Source of the DNA: Paracyclopina nana
Lineage: Eukaryota; Arthropoda; Copepoda; Cyclopoida; Cyclopettidae
Assembly (NCBI GenBank): GCA_019096065.1
Contig: JAGUCH010000001.1
Coordinates: forward strand, 1,674,001-1,738,000
DNA length: 64,000 nucleotides
Direction: 5' to 3'
Shown: piece by piece, positions 2,920 through 34,900 of the stretch
Layout: each line of letters starts with the position of its first letter
How positions within the stretch are numbered: the stretch's first letter is position 1
Notes under the pieces: generated by a model
Database searches by the model: none
The model's input: only the letters and a program-made list of their open reading frames with translations
What the model was told of the DNA's origin: nothing
Program-made: the position numbers and the translations under genes

Positions 2920-4571
2920 TCAAAAGTCTTCATCAAACTCTTTGATTTGTCCCAGTCTGTGCACAAACTGGGCGTTGACCATTAAGTTCATGTTGTCCAA
3001 TATGAGAGTGAGTAACAGCCAATCTCCATGAGAGCACTTCTTGACCAAATTCGTCTGAAAAACGTGTGAACAATTGTCAGCAGATGATGCATGAATAAAA
3101 AATATTCTCAAACATCTCAGCTAGATATTAATAATAAGCTTAATTAAAAGTGCTAAAAACTCACGTTAAAGTGCTTGATGCCATAGACGAATCTGAGGAC
3201 AAAGTCTCTGAAATCAGCCGAGGCCACGATGAATATTCGCGTGACCAGCATGAAACCCGAGGCTATGACCAAAACACCAAGCCAAAAGTAGAAAAGGGTG
3301 AAAAACTTTTGGTTGATCATGTTCAGTGGAAGAACGCACAAAAACGAGTGATCATTCAAAGCTCCATCAGATCCAGCCCTATAACATCATTAAGACTACT
3401 TTTATGTCATGCCAGGAAAATCACTGATCTTTTGTCATAGAGGAAAATCTAATACCAACTTGAGTGGGCTCCCTATTTACAGCATATCGTATTAGCAAGT
3501 TCAAAGCCTTAGCCTTGGCTGAAAATAATCCAGATACGCGATATTGGAATAGTTTCTAGTATCACAGAAAGAGGCCTCGAATTACGCCAATTACTCTCGA
3601 TTAGTATCTACTAGATACGAGACAAGTACCCTTACTACTTACGATTGGAACATGCAATGCGCAGTTACTGGCAATACAGACACGTGTAATTGAGACTGTA
3701 TTCCCCCCAAGGCCACAGATTGGAATTGGCCTTGCAGGAAAAAGTTGGTGAAGTAGAACTGCAAAAACACATTGGCAAAGTTGAGCAGCTCGCACCAGTA
3801 GAATTTCCCTGTGAAGCAATTACAGAGAGTCAAGAATATTTAATATGAGAATAATTGAATTTCCTTCTTACATGCCCAATAATCGTGGGTTCCTCTGGAA
3901 TCTTTCCAGTTCTGCACGAGAGCCTTCAATTTGGTGTTGTGCTCTCCAGATGTCAAATCTTGGTCGTCTTGAAGTCCTCTCACCAAAGTTTTTCGGTCCA
4001 AACCTTGCACAAGGCCCTCAGTCAAACCGCCTTCCCAGATCTGCCATAAATACCTATAATGAATACATTTACGTCATATGCATAAATACGTACGTAAATG
4101 TAATCCTAGTATAAAATACCTAGGTAAGTGGAAGAAGCCAGCTTGGCATACAAGCACAATGGCAACCCATTGGTAGTATCCGTGATGCCAGCAGTCTCCT
4201 TCCTTACGAGGATCGCAGTCCATATGGTCAATTTGGCCGCCTTTTCCAAGGTGAGTCATTTCATGCGAAGGCTTGGCAGTCCAGGTGCCTTCCACCCAAC
4301 AATAATTATCGATCAAGGACGGAGGAGTCTCCTTCAAGGTCACAATGCAATCGATTGGGTCCCCAGCATACTTTTAATATAAGGTAGAATAGGATACTTG
4401 TTATTTTTAAATCAAGATATTTACCTGCTGCAGCGATAGGAGAACGCTGAATACGACAAGTACTGTCACTGTCACTCTGTAGTGGAGCTTGGCCACGAAA
4501 TTATCAATGTTGATGGATCCAGCCAAGAACACTTTATCGTAAACATCCTTCAACACGTCCAAAAGTGACAT
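2920..4571 (-). CDS. Innexin (gap-junction channel subunit)
   Basis: Six coding exons on the minus strand: 4571-4425, 4370-4120, 4053-3872, 3808-3643, 3378-3165 and 3054-2920. They sum to 1095 nt, a 364-residue protein, normal for innexins. It starts MSLLDVLKDV. It has TM1 ending in SLQQ, the paired extracellular cysteines (YAGDPIDC, DNYCWVEGT), the innexin signature YYQWV before TM2, then PRYLWQIWEGG, WCELLNFANV (TM3), and CVLPLNM leading into TM4. The C-terminal tail contains GDWLLL. Six such subunits form hexameric channels that join cytoplasms of adjacent cells. All introns are GT-AG. The acceptor at 4053 was preferred over a nearer one because it keeps the conserved PR-WL-WEGG block in frame. 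The family paralogue is not assigned. Confidence 0.95.
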
Positions 4572-5318
4572 ATTTCCAGCTTCTTTAGCACCTACTCAGA
4601 AAAGTAACGAAATTCTGAATTAAAGGAGGATGTAGAGGAAGTCTGTTATCAAACTTGAGATGCTGGATGGAAATACAGTTTAATGATATTTGATCACCAA
4701 GTACGTTCGAGAATTACGTCAATTCAAGCTATTTTGGGGTTAACTAGATCGAGGGTAAAATTGGATTCAGTGAGATTTGAAGATGAGCTCAATTTATGCT
4801 CTTTTGCCTCAAACTTGCTGAAATCAATTTAATCTAGCTTTCATTACATACAAAGTAGGTCGATTTGTGAAAGTACCTCCAAGTTAGAGATTATTTAATT
4901 AATACCGAGCAGCTTGATTTGAAAATGTACTCATCTCCTAGCCGACTTTGCAAAAGGAGGAAATGAGATAGCATAGAAGGCTATTTTTTAGCTTAACTAG
5001 CTGTTTTCTAGCTTAAAGGCACAAAAAGTAAGTATTGATATGGTAACCTAAAATTCACAATAAATATTAATGAAATCATTTAATTCCAATTTTCTCACTG
5101 GCTCATTCAATAAAAGTCTTATTAGGCAGGGCAATCACATGATTTTTCAAGCATTTTGAGAGTAATGATATCCCTAGATCATTAAATAAACATCATCAAT
5201 CCGTGGTTGAGTTTTTCATGAGGCTGAAACATCAAAATAAAAAATGAAAGAACACTAATATGTTAAATAGATTACCTCAGATTGCTTTGTCTGATTCAAC
5301 ACGGACACAAAAGTGTGT
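4572..5318. other. AT-rich non-coding region upstream of the innexin gene
   Basis: It holds the innexin 5' UTR and promoter. No convincing reading frame, repeat or RNA gene is visible. Confidence 0.5.
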
Positions 5319-5712
5319 CAATTAGCCAAAGCAATTATCAAGTAGCTTCATTGAAGGCATTTTTCAATTTTGAATCCGTTTCAGGGCATGGAATGGGCGT
5401 GCAGAGAACTACATGGATTCCTGCGACCTCTTTGCAATACTGAATGAGGCTGTCAACAGCTTAAAGAAAAGAAGATGGAGTTTCCTTCGCATCTGTCAGG
5501 TTTTCCCTTCCCAAAATGATGACAGACTTGCTTTTGTTGTGGCGAGATTTCCAAAGCAACAGACGCAATTTCCTCGACCAAATTCCGCGTCAATTTTCGC
5601 CCCCCGCCAAAGGTTAATCTTGACAATTGCGTTGCCTGCTGAAAAAATTGGCAAAGGCCTCTCCAAGTAAGTGATATTGCAAGCAGAGAGAACTTGTCCA
5701 CATGGTGACAGG
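5319..5712 (-). pseudogene. Decayed SGNH/GDSL-hydrolase-like fragment
   Basis: On the minus strand three adjacent blocks in different frames read as consecutive parts of one SGNH-hydrolase-like fold. At about 5700-5600 there is a block with RPLPIF and NLWRGAKIDAEF. Then comes NLVEEIASVALEIS. At about 5540-5330 there is VIILGRENLTDA and then IQYCKEVAGIHVVLCTPIPCPETD. The last resembles the beta strand and Pro-rich loop (VVxxTPxP) found before the catalytic His/Asp region in SGNH enzymes. The frame changes at least twice and an in-frame stop follows SSFL, so it is broken. It could be a lost host esterase or the esterase module of a non-LTR element; no reverse transcriptase is nearby. The catalytic GDS block is not visible. 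Recognition is from motif pattern only. Confidence 0.5.
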
Positions 5713-5845
5713 AATATTTGATTTTCGATTTGCGGGATTTCGGCCGATTTCGGAATCTTTAGAATTTAGCGTTGCCATGCCATTCTCAGCTGTGCTTATA
5801 GGTTGTTACTGGTATTATCACTAATATGCATATATGGTATAAAAC

Positions 5846-5892
5846 AGAGACTTAGATTACAATCTAAGTCTCTGGTTAATCTAAGTCTCTGG
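5846..5892. repeat. Perfect 13-bp inverted repeat with an extra direct copy
   Basis: AGAGACTTAGATT (5846-5858) is followed after two bases by its exact reverse complement AATCTAAGTCTCT (5861-5873). A second copy of the right arm plus GG (AATCTAAGTCTCTGG) follows at 5878-5892. Each side is also bordered by GGTATAAAA. RNA from either strand could fold into a tight hairpin. No gene overlaps it. Confidence 0.85.
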
Positions 5893-6524
5893 TATAAAAT
5901 ACTAGTGAATTATTATAACTATAAGGGGACTTGGAGTTCGCGACTTCTCGCCATAAAATTAAAAAAGCAAATCTTGTTTGTTTTTGAACAACCAGTCTCA
6001 GCGTAGCCAGATAACAATGTGAATAAACAGTGAATTACAGAAGCTGTCAATACTGATTTTGGCGGATTTTTTAAATCGCAAGCAACTTTGGCCGTTTTTG
6101 GTTAAAAATGCTCCTAGTTACTAAATTGAGAAACTACTAATTACCAAACCGGTAGTTTTGGACAAAATAATGGCGGATTTTGAGGAAAATCTTCGATCAG
6201 CGACGTCCCTTACTTACCATTGCCATTGCCTATTGAGGGTTGCTAGGCAAAGCCGGAAAAATGATTGGAATTTTTCCTGGGCTTTCTGAAAATCGGTGCT
6301 CGGGTCAAGTGTTCCAGAAACTCCGCGACTTCGTTTTTAGTTTTTACTACTAGCTAGAGTTACCAGACTGCAAGATGCATTATGTCTACAGAAAGTATTC
6401 AAAATTGCCAAAATTATGATGATTCTCGAACGTCCAATAGCACGCTCCAAAATAGGGAAAACCGGAAATAGGTGAAACTTTTGATTTTCTTTGCTCTTCA
6501 CGAATTTATTTTATGATTTTCGAT

Positions 6525-19570: not shown

Positions 19571-19639
19571 CATAAATCAGTTTTATATAGCTTGGTGGTG
19601 TATTAGAAATAGAATCAATTTTTATTGTAGTCATGTTGA

Positions 19640-22600
19640 TCATTTGCGTGATACCATTGAGTAGAGTCCGGCCAATTTCTCCCTCACTCTCTCGTTGCCA
19701 GTGGAATGAAAGAAGAAAACTGAAGCGCCAAGGAATCCGTTGAGGATCGTGAACGTCCCATAGAGAGCCACATCTTGGTTGTACTCCGACATCACTCCGA
19801 TGACGAAGCTGATAAAAACGAGCGGCATGATTATCAAATTGGTGCGCTGCATAATCTTGGCCGAGAGGAGTTGCTGCTTATCCAATCCGGGAATTAACCG
19901 GTAATCTGCTGCACCTGCAGCCTCAATCATCGTGAAGATGAGGACGACAAGCACCATTATTGGAATAATTTGGGCGAACATCAATGGAGTGTTCACTTGC
20001 AGCCAACAATGATATTCCCCTCCATAATCATCAAATCTGCATGATAAAAAATTAATCATCATAAATCCACATATAGATCAAAATAGATCAAAATTTAGTT
20101 AAATCATTTTCCGCCAAGTGAAAGGATGGCGCTAGTGTTCATGGGGAAGTTGTTTCCAGGATCGAATTTTTTTCTTTTAGGCAGTTTTGGCGTTTTTGGT
20201 AAGCCAATGGCCAAATATTTGGGCATGCAAATCAGTCTTGCGGAAAAGCTCCTCTCGTGTAAAGAAAATTGAAAGGGGCCCCACATATAAAAATCAGCTA
20301 TTTATATGAGGCTCTCACAAAAGTTTGAAAGGAGTCTTTTGCCTTTATGGTGCATGGGTTAATATCAGCAGAGTTTGCAGCCATTGCCATCATAAAAAGG
20401 CCAAACATGTGCCGTGCAAAAAATGCTGTAAGATTATATGACCAGGCTCCAAAAAAAAGTTGCTCTTGCTATACACTGTATAGTCCATTTTGCGTCATTT
20501 CCTCTCAAGGTGTGCAAGAAAAAACTTCTTCTTTCTGCTCTCCTAAAAATTATTGCCAAAAGATGCACTACTTTTCTGTTTTTATCTAATAATACAAAAG
20601 CACCATTAGGAAAAGAACCTGTATTGGAAAAAAACCAGAAAACTTTTTTTTGTGTGTGCAAAGGACCCACATAATTTTTTTTTGGCATGATATGCAGAAT
20701 TTTTTGTTAATGGCAACCATAATTCTTGCTTTGTTGAAAACTGTAGCGGGAAAAAGCATCATCATCAGGCGACCATAAAATGCTGCATTTGTATAATTAT
20801 TTTTTATGGCCTTCGGACGTGAACTGCAAATAAATTACAGTCAGCCATATGTGCATTTGTTTGCTCTCGTTCTCACTACTCGATTGCTTTCGAGTTGTAT
20901 AAGCACGTGTCAAGAAGGTAATAATTTTCGCTTCAACTAGCAAATTCTGGCTGCCCCTGAATATTATCATTTAGTCGGCATTATTATCGTGACTTGACCC
21001 TTGTCATAAATATTTTTTTCTCCGAATCTGGGAAACTGGACAAAAATAGAACCAACTTTGGTCGTAGTAGGAAGAAAGTTACATAGGCAACTTTTTCACA
21101 TTTGAAAAAGAATTGCGATATTTTCTTTACCTGAGGCCGACTGAAATGAGCACAGTTGCAAGTGCAAATCCCCATCCAACGAGGGTGTTTTGCAGGCGGT
21201 TGAGAATGCCATTTTTCTTGACCACATAAGCCACTATGGTGTATGTATGCAGGCTCTCCAAAAACATGAACATGAATGTCGCAGTGAAGAAGAAATGAAT
21301 CAGAATGCTGATGATCCGACAGCCCTAGAAAGTAGGAGATATCTACATCTCGCTGCTACTTTTTTAAGTGAAACTTTTTTCAAAGTTGAGGGTGTCATCC
21401 TACATTTGAATCAGTGGCAATTCTATATCCTCTGTTAGAGTCACCTCGAAATCGCTCAAATTTCTCGTGAATTCATAACCTAACTAAGTGACTATGATAA
21501 TGCATCACAGTTTCAATTCAACCAATGCAATAGCCACATTTGCTTGCCTTTACATTGCAGCGCGTGGCATAAGTCTATGATAGCTAGTAGGTAATTCCAT
21601 CGTTAGCTGTTTTGCTATTAAGATTGATGGAATAGAAATATTATTGATGACATAACAGATAATAAATATGAATATGTGGCCTATATCAAGGGATGTGACA
21701 AGTACTTAAAAAATAGAAGGGCACGAAACAATTATTTCCTTTTACTTCGCGAACTAAATCAATGCATACAGTGATTACTTAATTTCTTCAAGAATGGTGC
21801 AAAATTTACTTACTTTCTTAAATCATCAAACAATATTAGGCATTTGAAACTATTCCCTTTACTCTGACCTGAGATCGATCGCTACTTACCTTTAGTATTC
21901 TACTTATGCGACATCTATTGGACAAAATGAAAACTTTGCTACGATTCTTATCCGATTATTCTAATTTTTTGCTTTTTTTCTCCTACTTATTCTACAGGAT
22001 GCGTCTCGGAAACCGCAACAGCTCAACAACCAGTCCACTCAATTGATTGTTTACATTTGATGCGCTTTTCGCGGACCGTTCTGTATACTGACCATGGGAA
22101 TCGGAGTGTCGCTGAGGTTGGGGATAAGCAAGCAGATGTGGGCACAAATCAGGGCAATCTCCATATTCATTTGAATGACTCTGGCATAATCATAGACCCT
22201 GAGGGAGGCGAACAAAAACAGCGTGATCCCCGTGAAAATGATCAAGATGCTCGATGCAGACTTGGTGACCGCAGTTGTGGCCGTTTTAACTTTGGGGGCC
22301 AAAGTTGGAATTGGTCTTGGCGTTGGAGTGGTTGGAGGCGGAATAATGCACTGAAATCAGGAGACACCATGAATATTTCGTAACATTATTCAGCCTGTTC
22401 CATAATTTTCTGATGATAGACTCCTCAAGCAAATAGAGCTAATCATCATGTTATAAATTATGACAGAAAATTATAGGCTCGGCTTAATGAGACGTCTTGA
22501 GTGAACAGCACACTGGTCGCGCAAATTGCCGCTAGAGGGTCACGCAACCTCTTTGCACTTCTACCTATCTTTGCAAAATGCAAGCTATATTTACTTTCCT

Positions 22601-23877
22601 AATTTGTTATTGCAGTAGTCAAAGGAAAAATAATGCCATTAGGCGGAAAGTTTGCGTTTGCTGTCATAAGGCAATCTTGGCTTTTTATCTTTGCCCTTTT
22701 TTGCATGTGAAAGCCAAAGAGGCTTTTTTCAATGGCCTCTTGATTACGGCCCATCTTCAATATTACTAGAATACTTTTCATATCCTGATTTTATACTGCA
22801 TATCATGTTGATGTACGAAAAGCCGTCAAGAATGAAAAGTAGCAGTGTAACTTTTTCGACCCTGAGGGTATTATTGACAGCTTGGAACACTTGGGAACTT
22901 TGCCACTGCTTCTACATTTGAGTCTTATACCGGGTGTCCGCGCAAACTTTCTGCACTTCCAAAAGTTGAACACAAAGCATTTAACAAAGGGATCAGCTCA
23001 ATCTGAGCACCTTCATCAAAATGCAACACAGCCATTATTTCCAAAAACAAACCATAAATCAGCTCTGTTTCAAAATCAACTTTTTCTATATACCTCATCG
23101 CCATCCGCGTTCATAATTCTTCCCAGTTGACATTCGCATTTCGTGGCCGGATCCTCGTCAGTGCTAATATCAGCGCAAGAAGCAAAGTCCATGCAATTGT
23201 ACCCCAGACACGGACTACATTTGGGAAAGAAAGTATATATTGATGGAATTATGGATCAAGCCAAAATGCACTACTTTCTCAAGAAACTGCTAACATAAAG
23301 AATCCTTGCTAAAAAGAATTATTTAAATTATTCAAATGAGAGAAACTTCACCTTGGGCACGTCTCGAGGTTCCAAGTGTTGCAGTCCTCTATGTGCTCAT
23401 AGGACTGGTTAAGCAGGTTCAGCTCTTTGCACGAGCTGAGCGGCCCACCTGTGCTCTCCGCGCACATGGTGAATCGTTGCCTGCTTCCGCGGCCGCAAGT
23501 TGCGCTGCAATTCGACCACTCGGACCACTGCATATCGCAAGGGTTGGTGTTGCACTTCTCCGTCTTGTCCGAAGGGCCCTCGCACAATTTGGGCCGGATT
23601 CCCTGGCGATTTTCATCGATGAAAAAATTCCATTAATTATTATTCCGGCCCGAAAACTTACTTGCGGCACAGGATTTGTGCATGACCTCTTTCTCGTCAT
23701 CAGTCCCCCTCCACAAGAGACCTCGACCATTTCCCCGTGAATATTTTCACGCAAACAAGGAGTCGCAACGGTGGACCAGGGTGACCAACCTCCATGAATT
23801 GTTATGGTACGTTGGGACAGGGAAACGCCGAAAAGCAAGACGAAGAACAGCAGGCAGAAAATCCGGAGCTTTGCCAT
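19640..23877 (-). CDS. Seven-TM receptor with TSP1 and EGF modules, no GAIN domain
   Basis: Six coding exons, 23877-23662, 23602-23352, 23214-23094, 22350-22093, 21324-21131 and 20036-19640, total 1437 nt, 478 residues. A signal peptide (LRIFCLLFFVLLFGVSLS) is followed by two thrombospondin type 1 repeats (GGWSPWS, MQWSEWSNCSATCG), a six-Cys EGF-like module (PCLGYNC to CII), a short Pro/Thr linker and seven membrane spans. TM2 to TM4 resemble adhesion/secretin receptors: MNMEIALICAH, HFFFTATFMFMFLESLH, LVGWGFALA. Only about 30 residues separate the EGF module from TM1, so no GAIN/GPS domain fits. ATG 23877 begins the signal peptide; another lies four codons upstream. The ligand is unknown. 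Introns 4 and 5 are the longest (about 0.8 and 1.1 kb). Confidence 0.82.
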
Positions 23878-26244: not shown

Positions 26245-27829
26245 ATGGAGGAGCAAGAATCACTGAACGCGTCCTCGGAGGTCGACCTCAATGACACTTT
26301 ACTATGGGAGATTGAGGAGGAGAAACGGCTCCTCTCCAACTTTGGAGCCTGGCTGGTCTTCATGGAAATGTCCGTGGCCTTGGTGGGCATCATTCTGAAT
26401 CTCACAGTGGTCATCTCCATCAGGGAGAGAGAGTCACTCATGAACAACACGGTCAATGTCATCCTTGGGAACCTCTGCTTTGCCAACCTCGTGGCTGCAG
26501 TGTTTACAAAGTCCATTGCCGTGATCTATCACGGCTATGCAGTGGCAAGGTCACGCTGGGAGGTCGAGCTGGCCTTTTGCACCGTGCACACTGTGACCTC
26601 GAGGGCCACGTGGGCCGTTTTCCCATACACTCTGCTCATCTTGTGTTGGCATAGCCTTGCTCTCCGAGCTGGCCGAATCATTCACAACTGCACAGTGAAG
26701 AAAAATATGGCAGTGACTTCTGATGCAGCTCAGGTGACCTCTTCACTAATTTTTTTCGAAATAAGATCCAAATTCCTAAGATTAATTAGCAGGGCTATAT
26801 GCTGGGTGCCATGGCGCTGCCACCTGGGGGTGATGCCTCGACTACAGCCAATAAGGCCGAATCCGGGCAGGAAGATGAGGCCAAACCTGAGGAGGACGAG
26901 GATGAGGACGAGGAGGAAATGGGCGAAGGTCTGACTGCCAAGCAAAAAAGCGCACTTGGCTTCATTTGGTTCGTCTCTGGAGTCTACTCACTCTTGTCTG
27001 ACCAAATCCTGTCCAAGGAGAGGGATGTGCACTGCTCACTCCGGTCGGACCTGAGTGACAAGTTCAACTTCATGTCCCTGATCGTGGCCATCGCAGCGCC
27101 TTTCATTGCCGGCCCCCTGTTCTGCCCTCTGGGCCATACCATACTCAGCTTGGTGGCCTGCTGCAAGGGCGTGGATGGGGGCGGGTCATGCATGGACTCG
27201 AAAACCAAAGATCTTCCAGGATCCGGATTGGGACGCACTTCGCTCGCTGACTGCGGCGTGGTCATCGGATTCACCCTCGTTTTCTTGATTGTGTATCCAG
27301 TGCAGATGTACGTGACTGAGGAATACCTGGCCAACGTGCAGTCCATGTTTGTGTTCATGGCCTTCAAATACTGCTTTGGCAGCCTCCACATCGTGCTCAT
27401 CCCCTTCGTGATTCTCACCATGAAAAAGGACATCAGGTACACTATATAATAGGATTTCCTCGCGTTACAAGTCAGTAATACGGCTCAGTTTTTTATCTGA
27501 GCAATTTGGGTAATTTTAGGCATTATATTTGACCTGAAGTTCTAGTCTGAAGGATATCAAGTTTCCTTAAGAAACTCACTTCATAGGGCAAAACCCGTGT
27601 CTTTAATTTTCAATTCCTCTCTTAGCAATGAAATGGCCCGGTTTTACAATCCCGTGTTCGACATAAACAAATATTGCTATTTATTATGCCCAACAACAAA
27701 AATTGAGTTTTAATATGTTACAGGCAAGCAGCAGTGGCCACTTATATCAAAACCAATACAGACGATGGCGAAATCACATTTGAGCAACTTCAAGAGCACT
27801 GTGGCATTGGAGTTCAACCAGGAGCCTAA
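26245..27829 (+). CDS. Atypical rhodopsin-like 7TM receptor, orphan
   Basis: Three coding exons, 26245-26733, 26793-27436 and 27724-27829, total 1239 nt, 412 residues. TM1 has the class A asparagine (GIILNLTVV). TM2 reads ILGNLCFANLVAAVF where LAxAD is usual. TM3 starts with the conserved Cys (ELAFCTVH), and another Cys in loop 2 (DVHCSL) could pair with it. At the end of TM3 there is ILCWHSLALR, with no DRY. TM6 has FLIVYPVQ in place of CWxP. TM7 (MAFKYCFGSLHIVLIPFVI) has no NPxxY. The second intracellular loop holds about 65 residues with a run of Glu and Asp. Such divergent class A receptors exist in arthropods, but I cannot name an orthologue. Start chosen as the first ATG before an acidic N-terminus with two N-glycosylation sites. 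Confidence 0.78.
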
Positions 27830-28925: not shown

Positions 28926-31900
28926 CTATACGAAAACCACTCTAGAGGTCAGACCTGAGCTTTTCCTTGGCTGCTGCTGCTGCTGTTGCTGCTGAGGTGG
29001 ATGGTGTGGATTGTTATCCTCGTCATCGTCCAGCTCACTTTTGAAGTCTGAGCACTCGTTTGTACTATCGGTCTCGGAGCATATCTCAACTTCTGCAAAA
29101 ATTACAATAATCGCATTAAAAACGTCTCTCGAGGGAAAAGTTCACTTTTTTAAGAAAAGGACGAGTGGTGGATTTTTATCAAGTAGTGCTATGGGTACAA
29201 AGAGGCCTACAATCTCAGAAAAGATATTGCAACAAGGGTGAATTTTAAGGTAATATGTATCTACGTACTATGGAAAATGAAAGATATAAATGCCACTAAG
29301 GTAGCCTTGAAAATCGGCTCGATTCATCAGAATGGTAATTTACTCCGAAAATGGTGGGACAATCTGCATTTATTCATTATGGGAAGATACTCTATAAGCT
29401 ACTCGAGGCTCTCTGCGCCATTGTAGCGGTCTGTGGGTTGGGCAAGTTGCCAACCACAATGCACTTTTTAAGAAGATATCTTGGATTCGCAAAACTTGTG
29501 CTCAGAGTTTTACTTGTTGTTGTGCATGATTTAAATGCAGGTGGGATTCTGCAACTTTATGAATTACAGCGGTGCGAATTAGCTACACGACTTGCCTACA
29601 ACGCTCATTGAGCGTTTGTACAAAATGACAGGAGGCTGCTTAAAGGGGTTCATTTCTAAGGGGGAGCAGTGGAAAGTGTGGTTATCATGTAGGAGGATAC
29701 CCGTATAATCCGAGAGGTCTGTTTGTAAATAAAAAATCAGCTTCAAATATTTTCCCAGCGCTCTGCGCCAATGCATTTTGCAATGTAGTATGCTCTATGA
29801 TTGCTCAATAGAAATGCAAACCTCGTTTTGCAGCCGGATGCATGCTGCCATTGCCAGGTGGATTGTAATTTTGCGTCACTGAACCAGCTACAATTGTCGA
29901 GCTCGGGGGCAAGTTCATTCTGCGAACCGAATCACGAATTATTTGCCGGATCGTCTTCAGGAACGCATTTCGGAACTCTGGAGTGCTGAAAATACACCAA
30001 AAAACACACTTTAGTCGCAGCCATCATTAAGAAAAACAGTCAGCTTTGGGTTGAAATTACCCAGCAATTTTCTGTCCGCGCCAGGGCTCTTTCCCATATT
30101 AACCGAATTCTTTACTATACTAATGGCCCACGTACGAACGTAGCTATTCTCGAAAAAAAGGAAATCCATTAGTTAGCCCCCCCAAAAAGAGACATGTCAA
30201 ACATAGAAAAAAGGAAACTGACGAGGCCTTTTAAAAGAAAGATTTTCCCATGGGAGGCAAATTGGCAGGTAAACAACACAACGTGCAGCAACAATGCATA
30301 TTCATGAATTATGGCCCTGGCGTAAGCCTTGATTTATGGTCGTCTCTAGCAGTATTTGCCTACATAACAATATCAATCTTGTATCAAGGCATTTTTCGTG
30401 TCTTCACCTTCACAGAGCAATTACACCTTTTTACGTAGCATACCGAGCGAACGACTTATAATGAATCAAAGCCATTATGTCATGCAAAATGTCTTGGTAA
30501 GCAAAGAAAGCACTTTTTGCTCGACCCCTAATTCACGTCGCAAATGGGAGTTTGGCATACAACACCTTATGAAGCACAACACCTAATTTAGCAGGATATG
30601 CAGGAAAATTTGACCCCAGTGCAAGAACTACATATTAGGGCACGCAAGAATGCAGATGAAAGGCGGAACTTTCTTGAAGAAGGAGATATGCGCATTTCGA
30701 GGGCTGCTCGCAAAGTGCGTAGAATAGAAATTACGAAGAAAAGTGTTGTTTATGCCTGTATGAGCTAGGGCTTATGCGCCAAGAGATTTGTCTTTGACAA
30801 AAGGACTCAAACAAGAAAAAGTAGCACAGCACAAAAAGCCTGCGAAACGCCAATGAAGAGGAATAAAAACATGAGCTTTCACTGTTTCCGCAAAGAAAAC
30901 AGAAACTACTTGAAGAATTCTTTCTCGCATCGAATGATTTTTGCGCGGAGAGTCATTTTCCCAAGAAGCAGGGATAAAAAACAGTCCCATAAAGAAAAGA
31001 CTGTTGCAGCAAACAGTAAACCCCCAGATGCTGCTGCTTCGATAGCTAAAATGAAAAAAGAGTTGCCCATTGAGCACTGTTATATGCAGCACTGCAGAGT
31101 GCACTAGGATACACTGCGCGCTCATCAATAAAAAAGTAGCACTACCAAATTGATTCGTGCTTGTGGTTACATACTCTACCCATACGCATGGTACATTAAT
31201 TCCCACCGGGTCATTACTCTACTGCGCAATGTTGATTGGCAAAATACCTGTTGGATAAATGGTAGCTTTTCTCTCTGCGGCGATTGCCACTCGTTTTCAG
31301 CTGCATAAGCTCCCAAGTAAAGTGGCCATCGGTGTCCGAAATGGTGCCAGCTTTCACTTGAACTTCGCCAACTGGTATCAAAACTTGGTACCGGATTATC
31401 TCGACCTCAGCTGGGTTGTTCTTGGAGGTGTTCGCCTGCAAGTATAGGAGTGAGTGCAGCTTAAAATGAAATGCTCAAACTTTTGAGCCAAGGCGACACA
31501 GATCTGAGTTTATAAAAGCAGCCATAAAAGAAGTGGATGATGTTTACCAAAAGCTGCTTTCGTTTGCTTCTGAGGCGCTCTTTGCACAGGAAGACAACTG
31601 CAGTCCTGAAGATGAAGCACATGGCATGCAACTCGAGGCCTTTCTTGATCTTGCCCAGAAAGCTGGCAATGTTGAGCCATTCCACGCCTCCGTAGTACAA
31701 AAGGTCTCCGGGATTGAGCTCGTGGAGTTGGCTGTTGCTCCTCTGGTATTGGCGGTACAAATGGTCGAAAATGGCTCCGTACTCCTCATGGATTCTTTGC
31801 ATTTCATTGATGTGCTCAGCTACATTTTCCATCCCGAGGAGTGCTTCTGACAGATGGTTTTGCTCCTCGCTCGAATTCAGAGCCAGCCCTTTGAGCTGCT

Positions 31901-34900
31901 GCAGTAGCAGCGGGTACTTCAGAATGCGTTGAATCGGCTTGATCAAGTAGGACTCGAGGGTGTGAGCTTGCTGCTGATTTGGGTTGCAGGAGGACAGAAA
32001 TTCTTGAAACGGATAATTGTCAGCGCCTAAATATGGGAGAAATTCGGTAAGTCACTGATGCTCCAATATCGGAAAATTCCACTGCATTGGGACTTATTCT
32101 TTTATTGGCGCTTTCGCCATAAAGGTAGTAGTAGTAGTCCCATTGCAATTTGCTAGTGCAAAAAAGCCGGTTCACTCACTTTGATGCAGGGCCTTTTGTG
32201 CCTTCGAATGGTTTGCACAATACGTGCTGTAAAGCTTAAATTCGTCTACATTGTAAAGGAATGCCGTGCCGATGGCCATAAGAAGAGACTAGAAAAAACA
32301 ATGGGAAAGCAATTATTATCGGTATTACAAATTTGCTCAGGAGAACTCTCTTACTTTGAATTGTGCGAGAGAAGTGTGGGAGCAGAAACCAGGATCACTC
32401 TCAAGAGATTCCTCGAGGATGCGCAAAAACTTGGTTTGGAAAACGAAAATTTCCTTGACGTTTTTGTACAGCTGCTCCAGATCATTGTAGGACCAGAAAT
32501 GCTCCTTCTTCAAGGGTTCCAAGTAGGCAGCGAGCAAAAATTGCAGGTCTTTCACGTACTTCTGTTCAGTCTCGATGAGCTCAGACAAAACCTGGAATAT
32601 ACAGAGGCTTTCCCTTGTGTTTCTCTCAACGCATTGAAGAGTGAGATATATACCTTTTTAATTTTCTTAACGTTCGGAGCCTGAGGGCTGTCACTGTTTA
32701 TTTGCAAGGGATTGAGGTGGAACTCGACCTTATTTTTCACCTCAGACTGCTCAGAAGATTGCGAGGGAGGAGCTGTAGTCGAATCACCATCAGGGGAATG
32801 CAGTTCCTTGGCTGAAAATTGTAAAACAGCATTAGCAAAAGAAAGGAAGCGCACATCTTCTCGGCTGCATCAAATGAAGGCTGCAGCAAGGAAGACCATG
32901 CCAACTACTGGATCTATTTGTGTTTTTCAGAGACGAAAACACTCACTTTTTCCTGGAGCCGGAACAATCAGGCTGGAAATGGCATCCTCGTTGATGGAGT
33001 TGTCTGTGGGGGGTGGGGGGCATACAAGGCTTTCTATGATGTCAACATTTCGGTTACTTGTCAACGTAGATATTGCGGGAGGATCTACGAGAAAAACAAC
33101 AGATTCTGCACAACAGTGATTGCATGCATCGCCAGGATTATTACCTGTTCTAGCAGAGCGAAGCATCATGCAAAGGGTCAACTCTTCTTGCAAAACTGAC
33201 TCGATGAACATCATGTCCAAATCACTCACAATCGCCCCGTTAATGACCATTATTTCATCACCTTTCATGAGTCCTGAACACAAGGATTATTATAGAAAAA
33301 GCTCATTTTTTCCAATTTAAGTCTGACTTACCATTCGAGCTTGCAACACTTCTCTCCTCAACTCGACTAACGTAGCAACACAATTCATCCTGCTTTTCTT
33401 TATTTTCAACCAGTTCTGCCTCAATGGAGAAGCCCCACATGGTATCAACGTTGAGCCGGTTGAGTTCCAACTGATAGAGAATTTTGGGGCAAACTTCTAT
33501 GATTTCATGGCTTTGTGCCTATGCATAACAAGAGATCAAGAAGGGAAGTCCCTCATATTTAACTAGTCAACTTACGTAGCAATCTAAGAGGTCACATCTT
33601 TGTGGCACAAAGAATTTGGTGTCAGGCATTTCTTTCTTTTTCTTTACCCGTAGGAAATGCTCTGAGGAAGAGAGCTCGTTTTCCAAGCACACTTTGTTCA
33701 TAAATTCGTCAATCGTCGATTTCTTCTTAACAGTGCACTTTACGAGCTGCAAAAAAACCACCGAATTAGTTACAAAAAAAATCCGAGAGGTTGCGTGAGG
33801 CTTGGAGCACTAAGTAGCGCGCATTACTTTTCTGCCCGGAATTCGGACGTGGATCAATGTGGACTCATTGAAATCGTCATCATCGTCGTAAGACTTGGAT
33901 GTAGCACCCCCCACACCGAGTCCGGAGTCAGCGTGATCTCCAGTGTCCATGCTGGAATTTGCCTGCAGCGATCTCTTCCTCGAAGCCCCTCGACCAGCGA
34001 GCAAGTTGCTAAGTAGAGAAGGACTGCGCGCACAAATGTAAGCATGAAATGACGAGACTGTGAAGACCCCGAGCAGATTCAGCACCGCTTTGGTTGACTG
34101 ATTGACTTGACTCAGGACACCCTGCAATTCAATTAAGAAGAAGTTATATGACATTAACATATAATGTATATGCAAGATGTGTACTGCGCCGCACTCATAA
34201 TTAGATGAGTGCAGAACCTAGTTAACAACAGGATAATGTATCTCACTCACCTTAGGATTCGGAAGCTCTCCGTTTTGCAGCGATGCCATGTAGCACCTGA
34301 GCCTGAACTGCTCACAATGAAGTCGCTCCAGCGTCTCCTCCCAATGGCGGATTTGAGCAACAATCTGAGATCGGTGAGTGTCATTGGTCACCACCGAGAT
34401 CTGGAGCTCCGCCATATGCTTCAACTTTTGGGTCTGAGAGAATAGGAACCATTGAGGATGGACAATTTGAAACTAAAGGATCACGCATTAAATACCGATT
34501 CTATGCCCTTTTCGAGGCGATAAATTTCCTCTTGCAACAGATGCAACGTTCCAGTTTTTCCTCGGTGCCTTGCAAAGGCTGCCGCACAAGCCGAGTGGAT
34601 CGAGTTCACCCATTCTTCGAGTTCAATTTGGCATGGCGCCTTGAAACGAGAAAAAGCAATTAGATGGAAAAGTCTAGCCAACTAATCGGGCTCACCTGGA
34701 AGAGATAGGCATCCCCGAATGCGGTTGAGAGGCAGAAAATAAAGTCCCTTTTGGGGTGCTCTGGGATCGCTTGCATAATTGAGCCATCGACAATAATGAG
34801 GTGACGAGGAGTGGCTTCGACAGATTGGCCTTCCTTGGATTCACAGGGATAAAAAAGCAAAGTCGTGCCCTTCAAGCAGACCCAGTATCCTTTCCATCCT

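Follow-up and report, generated by a model that had tools for sequence, protein, structure and literature searches.

A compact TSP1-TSP1-EGF receptor with an adhesion-type 7TM region and no GAIN domain in the copepod Paracyclopina nana

Introduction

The stretch of DNA analysed here (the window) comprises 64,000 nucleotides of the genome of the copepod Paracyclopina nana, positions 1,674,001 to 1,738,000 of contig JAGUCH010000001.1 in assembly GCA_019096065.1. On its minus strand lies a gene for a receptor in which a signal peptide is followed, in one reading frame, by two thrombospondin type 1 (TSP1) repeats and an epidermal growth factor (EGF)-like module with six cysteines; a stalk of some 30 residues then leads to an adhesion-type seven-transmembrane (7TM) region. 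This architecture, in which the GAIN domain is missing, is near certain. Three further genes with the same domain order, also without GAIN, are present in this genome (92 Mb, 10 contigs).

Nearly all described adhesion-type 7TM regions have a tethered agonist, which makes it hard to study how such a region works without one. A GAIN-less family in which the Trp-Gln switch of the 7TM region has also been replaced is a direct natural test of that question. Coupling of the family to G proteins would point to a different trigger within the same 7TM fold, and failure to couple would show signalling decay in an adhesion receptor. The window protein is compact at 478 residues, so the whole receptor should be easy to express.

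Gene structure and domain composition

The gene, rebuilt from the sequence, runs from 23877 to 19640 of the window and has six exons of 216, 251, 121, 258, 194 and 397 nt, in total 1437 nt or 478 amino acids and a stop codon. The model is predicted from homology and splice sites, and all five introns have GT-AG borders. The donor of exon 4 was placed after 22093 (GTCAGT), since the alternative GTATAC, four bases further along, would break the frame. The rebuilt model reproduces the original prediction of six exons, in which a signal peptide precedes two TSP1 repeats, an EGF module with six cysteines and about 30 residues ahead of the first transmembrane helix (TM1). The features are as follows, with residues of the 7TM region given in the numbering introduced below.

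Exon 1, 23662..23877, minus strand: start codon ATG at 23877-23875; signal peptide, about residues 1-22, hydrophobic over 2-20; the larger part of TSP1 repeat 1, up to residue 72
Intron 1, 23603..23661, minus strand: 59 nt, GT-AG, phase 0
Exon 2, 23352..23602, minus strand: end of TSP1 repeat 1 and the whole of TSP1 repeat 2; Pfam TSP_1 and TSP1_ADAMTS; PDB matches to thrombospondin-1 and properdin
Intron 2, 23215..23351, minus strand: 137 nt, GT-AG, phase 2
Exon 3, 23094..23214, minus strand: cysteines 1-5 of the EGF-like module (C158, C163, C169, C182, C184)
Intron 3, 22351..23093, minus strand: 743 nt, GT-AG, phase 0; possible site of an overlooked GAIN exon
Exon 4, 22093..22350, minus strand: opens with the codon of EGF cysteine 6 (C197); then Pro/Thr stalk (about 198-228), TM1 and TM2
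Intron 4, 21325..22092, minus strand: 768 nt, GT-AG (donor GTCAGT), phase 0
Exon 5, 21131..21324, minus strand: TM3 (F3.44, M3.47, E3.50, H3.53-Y3.55) and most of TM4
Intron 5, 20037..21130, minus strand: 1094 nt, GT-AG, phase 2
Exon 6, 19640..20036, minus strand: extracellular loop 2 (CWL), TM5, TM6 (P6.47, F6.50, F6.53), TM7 (L7.49, G7.50), short cytoplasmic tail; stop codon at 19642-19640
AATAAA, 19621..19626, minus strand: polyadenylation-like signal directly past the stop codon, read from the sequence

A signal peptide and seven helices are evident in the hydropathy profile of the protein. A Pfam scan at E up to 1, in which filters remove most matches above about 0.1, placed 7tm_2 at residues 220-451 (E 8.1e-23, 81.4 bits against a cut-off of 20.6) and TSP_1 on two stretches (E 1.1e-10); GAIN, GPS and HRM were not among its matches. 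Nor did Pfam call an EGF domain, and the EGF-like module was assigned from its cysteine pattern only (C158, C163, C169, C182, C184 and C197), which is invariant in all four members of the family and is the pattern of EGF modules. The second TSP1 repeat contains WSEW and CSATCGRG, which are compatible with sites of C-mannosylation and O-fucosylation. According to the available part of PMC13197933, ligand binding by the TSP1 modules of ADGRB1/B3 requires C-mannosylated Trp and O-fucosylated Thr.

Among solved structures in the PDB, the 7TM region matches ADGRD1 best (E 1.4e-22), and its best class B1 match is the calcitonin receptor (E 2.2e-7). Judged by these matches, the 7TM region is of the adhesion type (class B2) and closer to adhesion than to secretin receptors. 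When a profile of the four family proteins was searched against the PDB, ADGRD1 again came first (E 4.2e-34), followed by ADGRL2/L3 and then ADGRE5, the same order as with the single sequence.

Absence of a GAIN domain

In the window protein, about 30 residues separate the last EGF cysteine from TM1, and no GAIN domain lies between them. A GAIN/GPS exon might have been overlooked, or the model might fuse two transcripts, and intron 3 is in phase 0, so that a symmetric exon could join there in frame. Exon 4, however, from which the stalk, TM1 and TM2 are translated, opens with the codon of the sixth EGF cysteine (C197), and an exon inserted in intron 3 would therefore split the EGF module. At 743 nt, intron 3 is also shorter than the 765 nt needed for the Pfam GAIN (210 positions) and GPS (45 positions) domains. 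Its open stretches on the coding strand are not longer than in shuffles, the longest being 64 amino acids, a length equalled or exceeded in 233 of 500 shuffled sequences.

The closest paralogue, on contig C3, gives the same answer in another way. Its second exon, 872 nt long and unbroken, runs from the end of the first TSP1 repeat through the second repeat, the EGF-like module and the stalk to TM1 to TM4, and so bears out the claim that the TSP1-TSP1-EGF ectodomain and the 7TM region belong to one protein.

GPS and GAIN profiles were searched against six-frame translations of the whole genome at E up to 1, which gave 14 GPS matches (12 above the cut-off) and 12 GAIN matches (8 above). None of these matches falls within the 64-kb window or any of the three paralogous loci. 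As a control on the GPS search, its matches adjoin four class B loci out of 22 in the genome (L023, L024, L025 and L031).

The case against a missed GAIN domain is carried by the short linker between EGF and TM1 and by the single exon of the C3 gene, and the paralogues are its strongest point. On this evidence, an overlooked GAIN exon in the window gene is practically excluded, and we rejected both it and a fusion of transcripts as most improbable; the absence of GAIN before TM1, as originally proposed, almost certainly does not stem from a missed GAIN/GPS exon.

Paralogues and phylogenetic placement

The C3 gene (L013, C3:4901589-4903162), modelled with three exons, is 54% identical to the window protein. 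The other two paralogues are L014 (C1:11023850-11028158), which is 48% identical, and L015 (C2, near 2.416-2.419 Mb), which is 45% identical and has a rough model for its N-terminal half. A fifth gene of the family did not turn up when the genome was searched with three different members. In L015, PAN-like modules occur at 3761-6465 (plus strand) of the locus, ahead of the TSP1 repeats and between these and the EGF-like module. One PAN_1 match, at 21.7 bits, passes its cut-off of 21.4, and the remaining PAN matches fall below theirs. Taken at face value, these modules indicate that the head of this receptor family is undergoing reshuffling.

Two other accounts of the gene copies were considered and set aside. 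A chance fusion or a pseudogene at the window locus was rejected, as the domain order recurs at four loci and nonsynonymous change is lower than synonymous change. Over 476 codons of the window and C3 genes, nonsynonymous differences (pN) amount to 0.33 and synonymous differences (pS) to 0.77, so the window protein is maintained by selection. A processed retro-copy as the origin of the C3 gene is unsupported, since introns of 56 and 54 nt are retained; the single in-frame stop codon in the six-frame match of this gene falls inside its modelled 54-nt intron.

The 35 class B matches in the genome represent, by our count, 22 loci. A maximum likelihood tree was built from 19 7TM rows, 18 of them from these loci and one from human ADGRD1; L023, L024, L030 and the locus at C1:16275833 were left out. 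Several of the 7TM models in the tree were spliced by script and are rough, four of 16 inner branches are starred, and the group labels of rows outside the family are our own. The window gene and its three paralogues form one clade (support 100/99) on a long stem of 1.49. By path length the row nearest to this clade is human ADGRD1, although the branching around the clade is poorly supported. Five B1-like rows form a separate group (100/99), as do L017, L019, L021 and L029 (100/100), which keep W6.53 and of which L017 was labelled Mth-like by us.

Activation residues of the 7TM region

Residues were numbered according to PMC9046087 and PMC12830901 and carried over by alignment with ADGRD1. As described in the available parts of these two papers, the tethered agonist contacts W6.53 in ADGRD1 and ADGRF1, where W6.53 likely hydrogen-bonds with Q7.49. 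The same W6.53-Q7.49 bond is reported for ADGRL4, and mutation at W6.53, Q7.49 or G6.50 lowers the activity of ADGRD1, ADGRF1 and ADGRL4 (PMC9046087, PMC12830901, in part).

All four family members have Phe at 6.50 (Gly in ADGRD1), Phe at 6.53 (Trp in ADGRD1) and Leu at 7.49 (Gln in ADGRD1). F3.44, E3.50, Y3.55 and G7.50 are retained in all four, and M3.47, H3.53 and P6.47 in three, all but the C2 gene. The activation core of F3.44, M3.47 and W6.53 with Q7.49 is thus incomplete, with F3.44 present in four of four, M3.47 in three, and W6.53 and Q7.49 in none. Among ten other readable class B rows of this genome outside B1, Trp occurs at 6.53 in eight and Gln at 7.49 in six, and all five B1-like rows have Gln at 7.49. 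The three readable rows that bear a GPS (L024, L025 and L031) have Trp at 6.53 in two cases and Gln at 7.49 in one.

Constraint on the stalk

Between the window and C3 proteins, the stalk (residues 198-228) is identical at 26 of 31 positions, compared with 258 of 476 overall, and its nonsynonymous divergence (dN) is 0.12 vs 0.44. When 31-residue windows were slid along this pair, all of the top 20 of 448 overlapped the stalk. Gene conversion is not favoured as the source of the identity because the synonymous sites of the stalk have diverged far as well (pS 0.65). The stalk looks constrained in this closest pair only, to judge from the alignments, and we rejected the idea that it is conserved across the family as a whole. 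No block resembling the tethered agonist TxFAVLM was found when the stalks of the four members were read by eye.

Biological interpretation

Our preferred explanation, held tentatively and with confidence a little short of even, is that the four genes form a small family of compact, GAIN-less receptors derived from adhesion class B2, which would be uncut and independent of a Stachel (tethered) agonist. Such a receptor may be activated through its short stalk. The TSP1/EGF head would bind an immobile ligand on matrix or on a cell surface, and, with only about 30 residues between head and TM1, the Pro/Thr stalk would pass this binding, or a pull, directly to the extracellular loops and to TM1. 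The juxtamembrane stalk could perhaps itself be a permanently attached ligand of the pocket. On the receptor side, loss of the Trp-Gln switch would then mirror that of the tethered agonist. The original prediction had suggested either another mode of activation or a lineage-specific loss of GAIN; replacement of W6.53 and Q7.49 in all four members is consistent with another mode, with the reservation that the GPS-bearing L024 lacks both residues as well. A link between the missing agonist module and the missing switch is suggested here from one clade. A more specific form of this explanation appears rather unlikely to us: a Stachel-independent clade of four or more genes would have given up GAIN with its tethered agonist and the switch (W6.53/Q7.49, G6.50) together, with the uncut head driving the 7TM region through the stalk of about 30 residues, which may fill the pocket.

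Several observations weigh against a Stachel-independent family of this kind. Flamingo-like L016 and L024 (an Ig/GPS/7tm_2 candidate of this genome) both lack W6.53 and Q7.49, and L024 has a GPS match, so loss of the switch is by itself no mark of GAIN loss. Matches to the GAIN profile occur at none of the 22 class B loci, and L016 is without a GPS match, so silence of the GAIN and GPS profiles taken alone is weak evidence. In the other five pairs of family members, the stalk is identical at 8 to 17 of 31 positions, no better than the rest of the protein. Without a TxFAVLM-like block, the stalk may be a mere spacer. Finally, adhesion-type receptors without GAIN are already known, in the form of ADGRA1.

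The main rival, unlikely in our estimate yet deserving serious weight, is that the protein serves in adhesion or as a scaffold, with a 7TM region that anchors the TSP1/EGF head in the membrane and has ceased to signal through G proteins. The substitution of G6.50, W6.53 and Q7.49 in all members and the short cytoplasmic tail are what such a protein could have, and mutating such positions lowered the activity of ADGRD1, ADGRF1 and ADGRL4 in the work cited above (available parts of PMC9046087 and PMC12830901). The residues kept elsewhere in the core, namely F3.44, E3.50, Y3.55 and G7.50 in all four members and M3.47, H3.53 and P6.47 in three, speak mildly against it. Moreover, the 7TM region is no less conserved than the head between the window and C3 proteins (138 of 237 residues identical vs 86 of 175), which a mere anchor would not need.

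An improbable alternative is a mode like that of class B1, in which the ectodomain captures a diffusible peptide that then enters the 7TM pocket. The compact ectodomain close to TM1 and the lack of a visible tethered agonist would suit this mode. Pfam found no HRM, however, the E-values given above place the 7TM region closer to adhesion than to B1 receptors, and the five B1-like rows of the genome group apart.

A split adhesion receptor, in which the GAIN-less 7TM protein would receive its GAIN in trans by pairing with single-pass GAIN-GPS proteins of this genome, seems very improbable. Contigs C6 and C8 do hold GAIN/GPS frames followed by one hydrophobic helix, and the genome search listed no 7tm_2 match on either contig, but the loss of W6.53 and Q7.49 argues against any use of a Stachel, in cis or in trans.

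Comparison with known receptors

By its sequence, the window family has the adhesion 7TM fold but lacks the GAIN domain, GPS, tethered agonist and toggle residues of a standard adhesion G-protein-coupled receptor (GPCR). ADGRD1 (GPR133), its best 7TM match, has F3.44, M3.47, E3.50, P6.47 and G7.50 in common with the window protein and differs in W6.53, G6.50 and Q7.49, where the latter has F, F and L, as well as in the GAIN domain. The stalk of ADGRD1 acts as a tethered agonist (PMC9046087, in part).

The original prediction had likened the protein to BAI (ADGRB). This comparison stands for the TSP1 repeats, which lie N-terminal to an adhesion-type 7TM region in both, and goes no further. BAI receptors have HRM and GAIN domains and no EGF module next to the membrane, whereas the window protein has TSP1 repeats with no HRM, GPS or GAIN found. 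The 7TM region matches ADGRD1 best, as stated above, and no BAI 7TM region is among the 57 and 48 PDB matches listed for the single sequence and the profile. A PxxG motif at 6.47/6.50 is reported for ADGRB, D and F in the available part of PMC9046087; the window family retains only its Pro, in three of four members.

The EGF-TM7 receptors (ADGRE), for example CD97/ADGRE5, resemble the window protein in having EGF-like modules on an adhesion-type 7TM region, and the 7TM region of ADGRE5 was matched with E 2.6e-15. In ADGRE receptors the GAIN domain sits between EGF and TM1, where the window protein has its stalk of about 30 residues. ADGRA1 differs from the window protein in having no TSP1/EGF head. 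It is likewise an adhesion-family receptor without GAIN, and the available part of PMC8421042 calls ADGRA1 (GPR123) the sole adhesion GPCR lacking one.

Secretin receptors (class B1) differ in that no HRM was found in the window protein and its 7TM region is not of the B1 type. Methuselah-type receptors of insects are another point of comparison: they are arthropod class B 7TM receptors without GAIN, and their ectodomain is not of the TSP1/EGF kind.

In the open-licence literature searched, which was available in part and is no proof of absence, we found no TSP1-TSP1-EGF-7TM receptor without GAIN. The accessible parts of a land-crab receptor paper (PMC6341585) hold nothing on this architecture, those of a dipteran receptor paper (PMC3863949) contain none of the relevant terms, and those of PMC2246102, PMC8584163, PMC6422961 and PMC13197933 name no such receptor.

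Other features of the window and genome

About 2.4 kb past the 5' end of the receptor gene, at 26245-27449 (plus strand) of the window, open frames with several hydrophobic stretches have the look of a rhodopsin-type receptor; in two of the frames, a Pfam scan at E up to 0.01 matched nothing. A frame at 31461-32051 (minus strand) encodes RhoGEF and Tiam1-type PH domains and is part of a gene resembling Tiam/still-life.

Elsewhere in the genome, the ectodomain query found its best match outside the receptors (E 2.2e-10) at G000:C1:9123130-9127260 (plus strand), which has an open frame of 899 amino acids and adjoining frames with many TSP1 matches. The GAIN/GPS frames that continue into one hydrophobic helix in place of a 7TM region lie at L033 (3180-5690, plus strand), L034 (4278-6005, plus strand), L035, L036 and L037. 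HRM occurs in L033 and L036, and L033 has a SUEL lectin domain. L033 and L034 have tails of about 300 and 338 residues with no further helix, and in L035, L036 and L037 the frame ends shortly past the helix. A motif SPxxHxYxEI(E/D)P is present in the tail or a downstream frame of L034, L036 and L037, and L033 has a version with one extra residue.

TTAGG is the arthropod telomere repeat. Arrays of it, some of them degenerate, were seen at seven of ten contig ends examined; one end had neither these nor the GGCCT satellite, and two had the latter. Contigs C1 and C2 each carry such an array of the GGCCT five-base satellite at one of their ends (L041 and L044).

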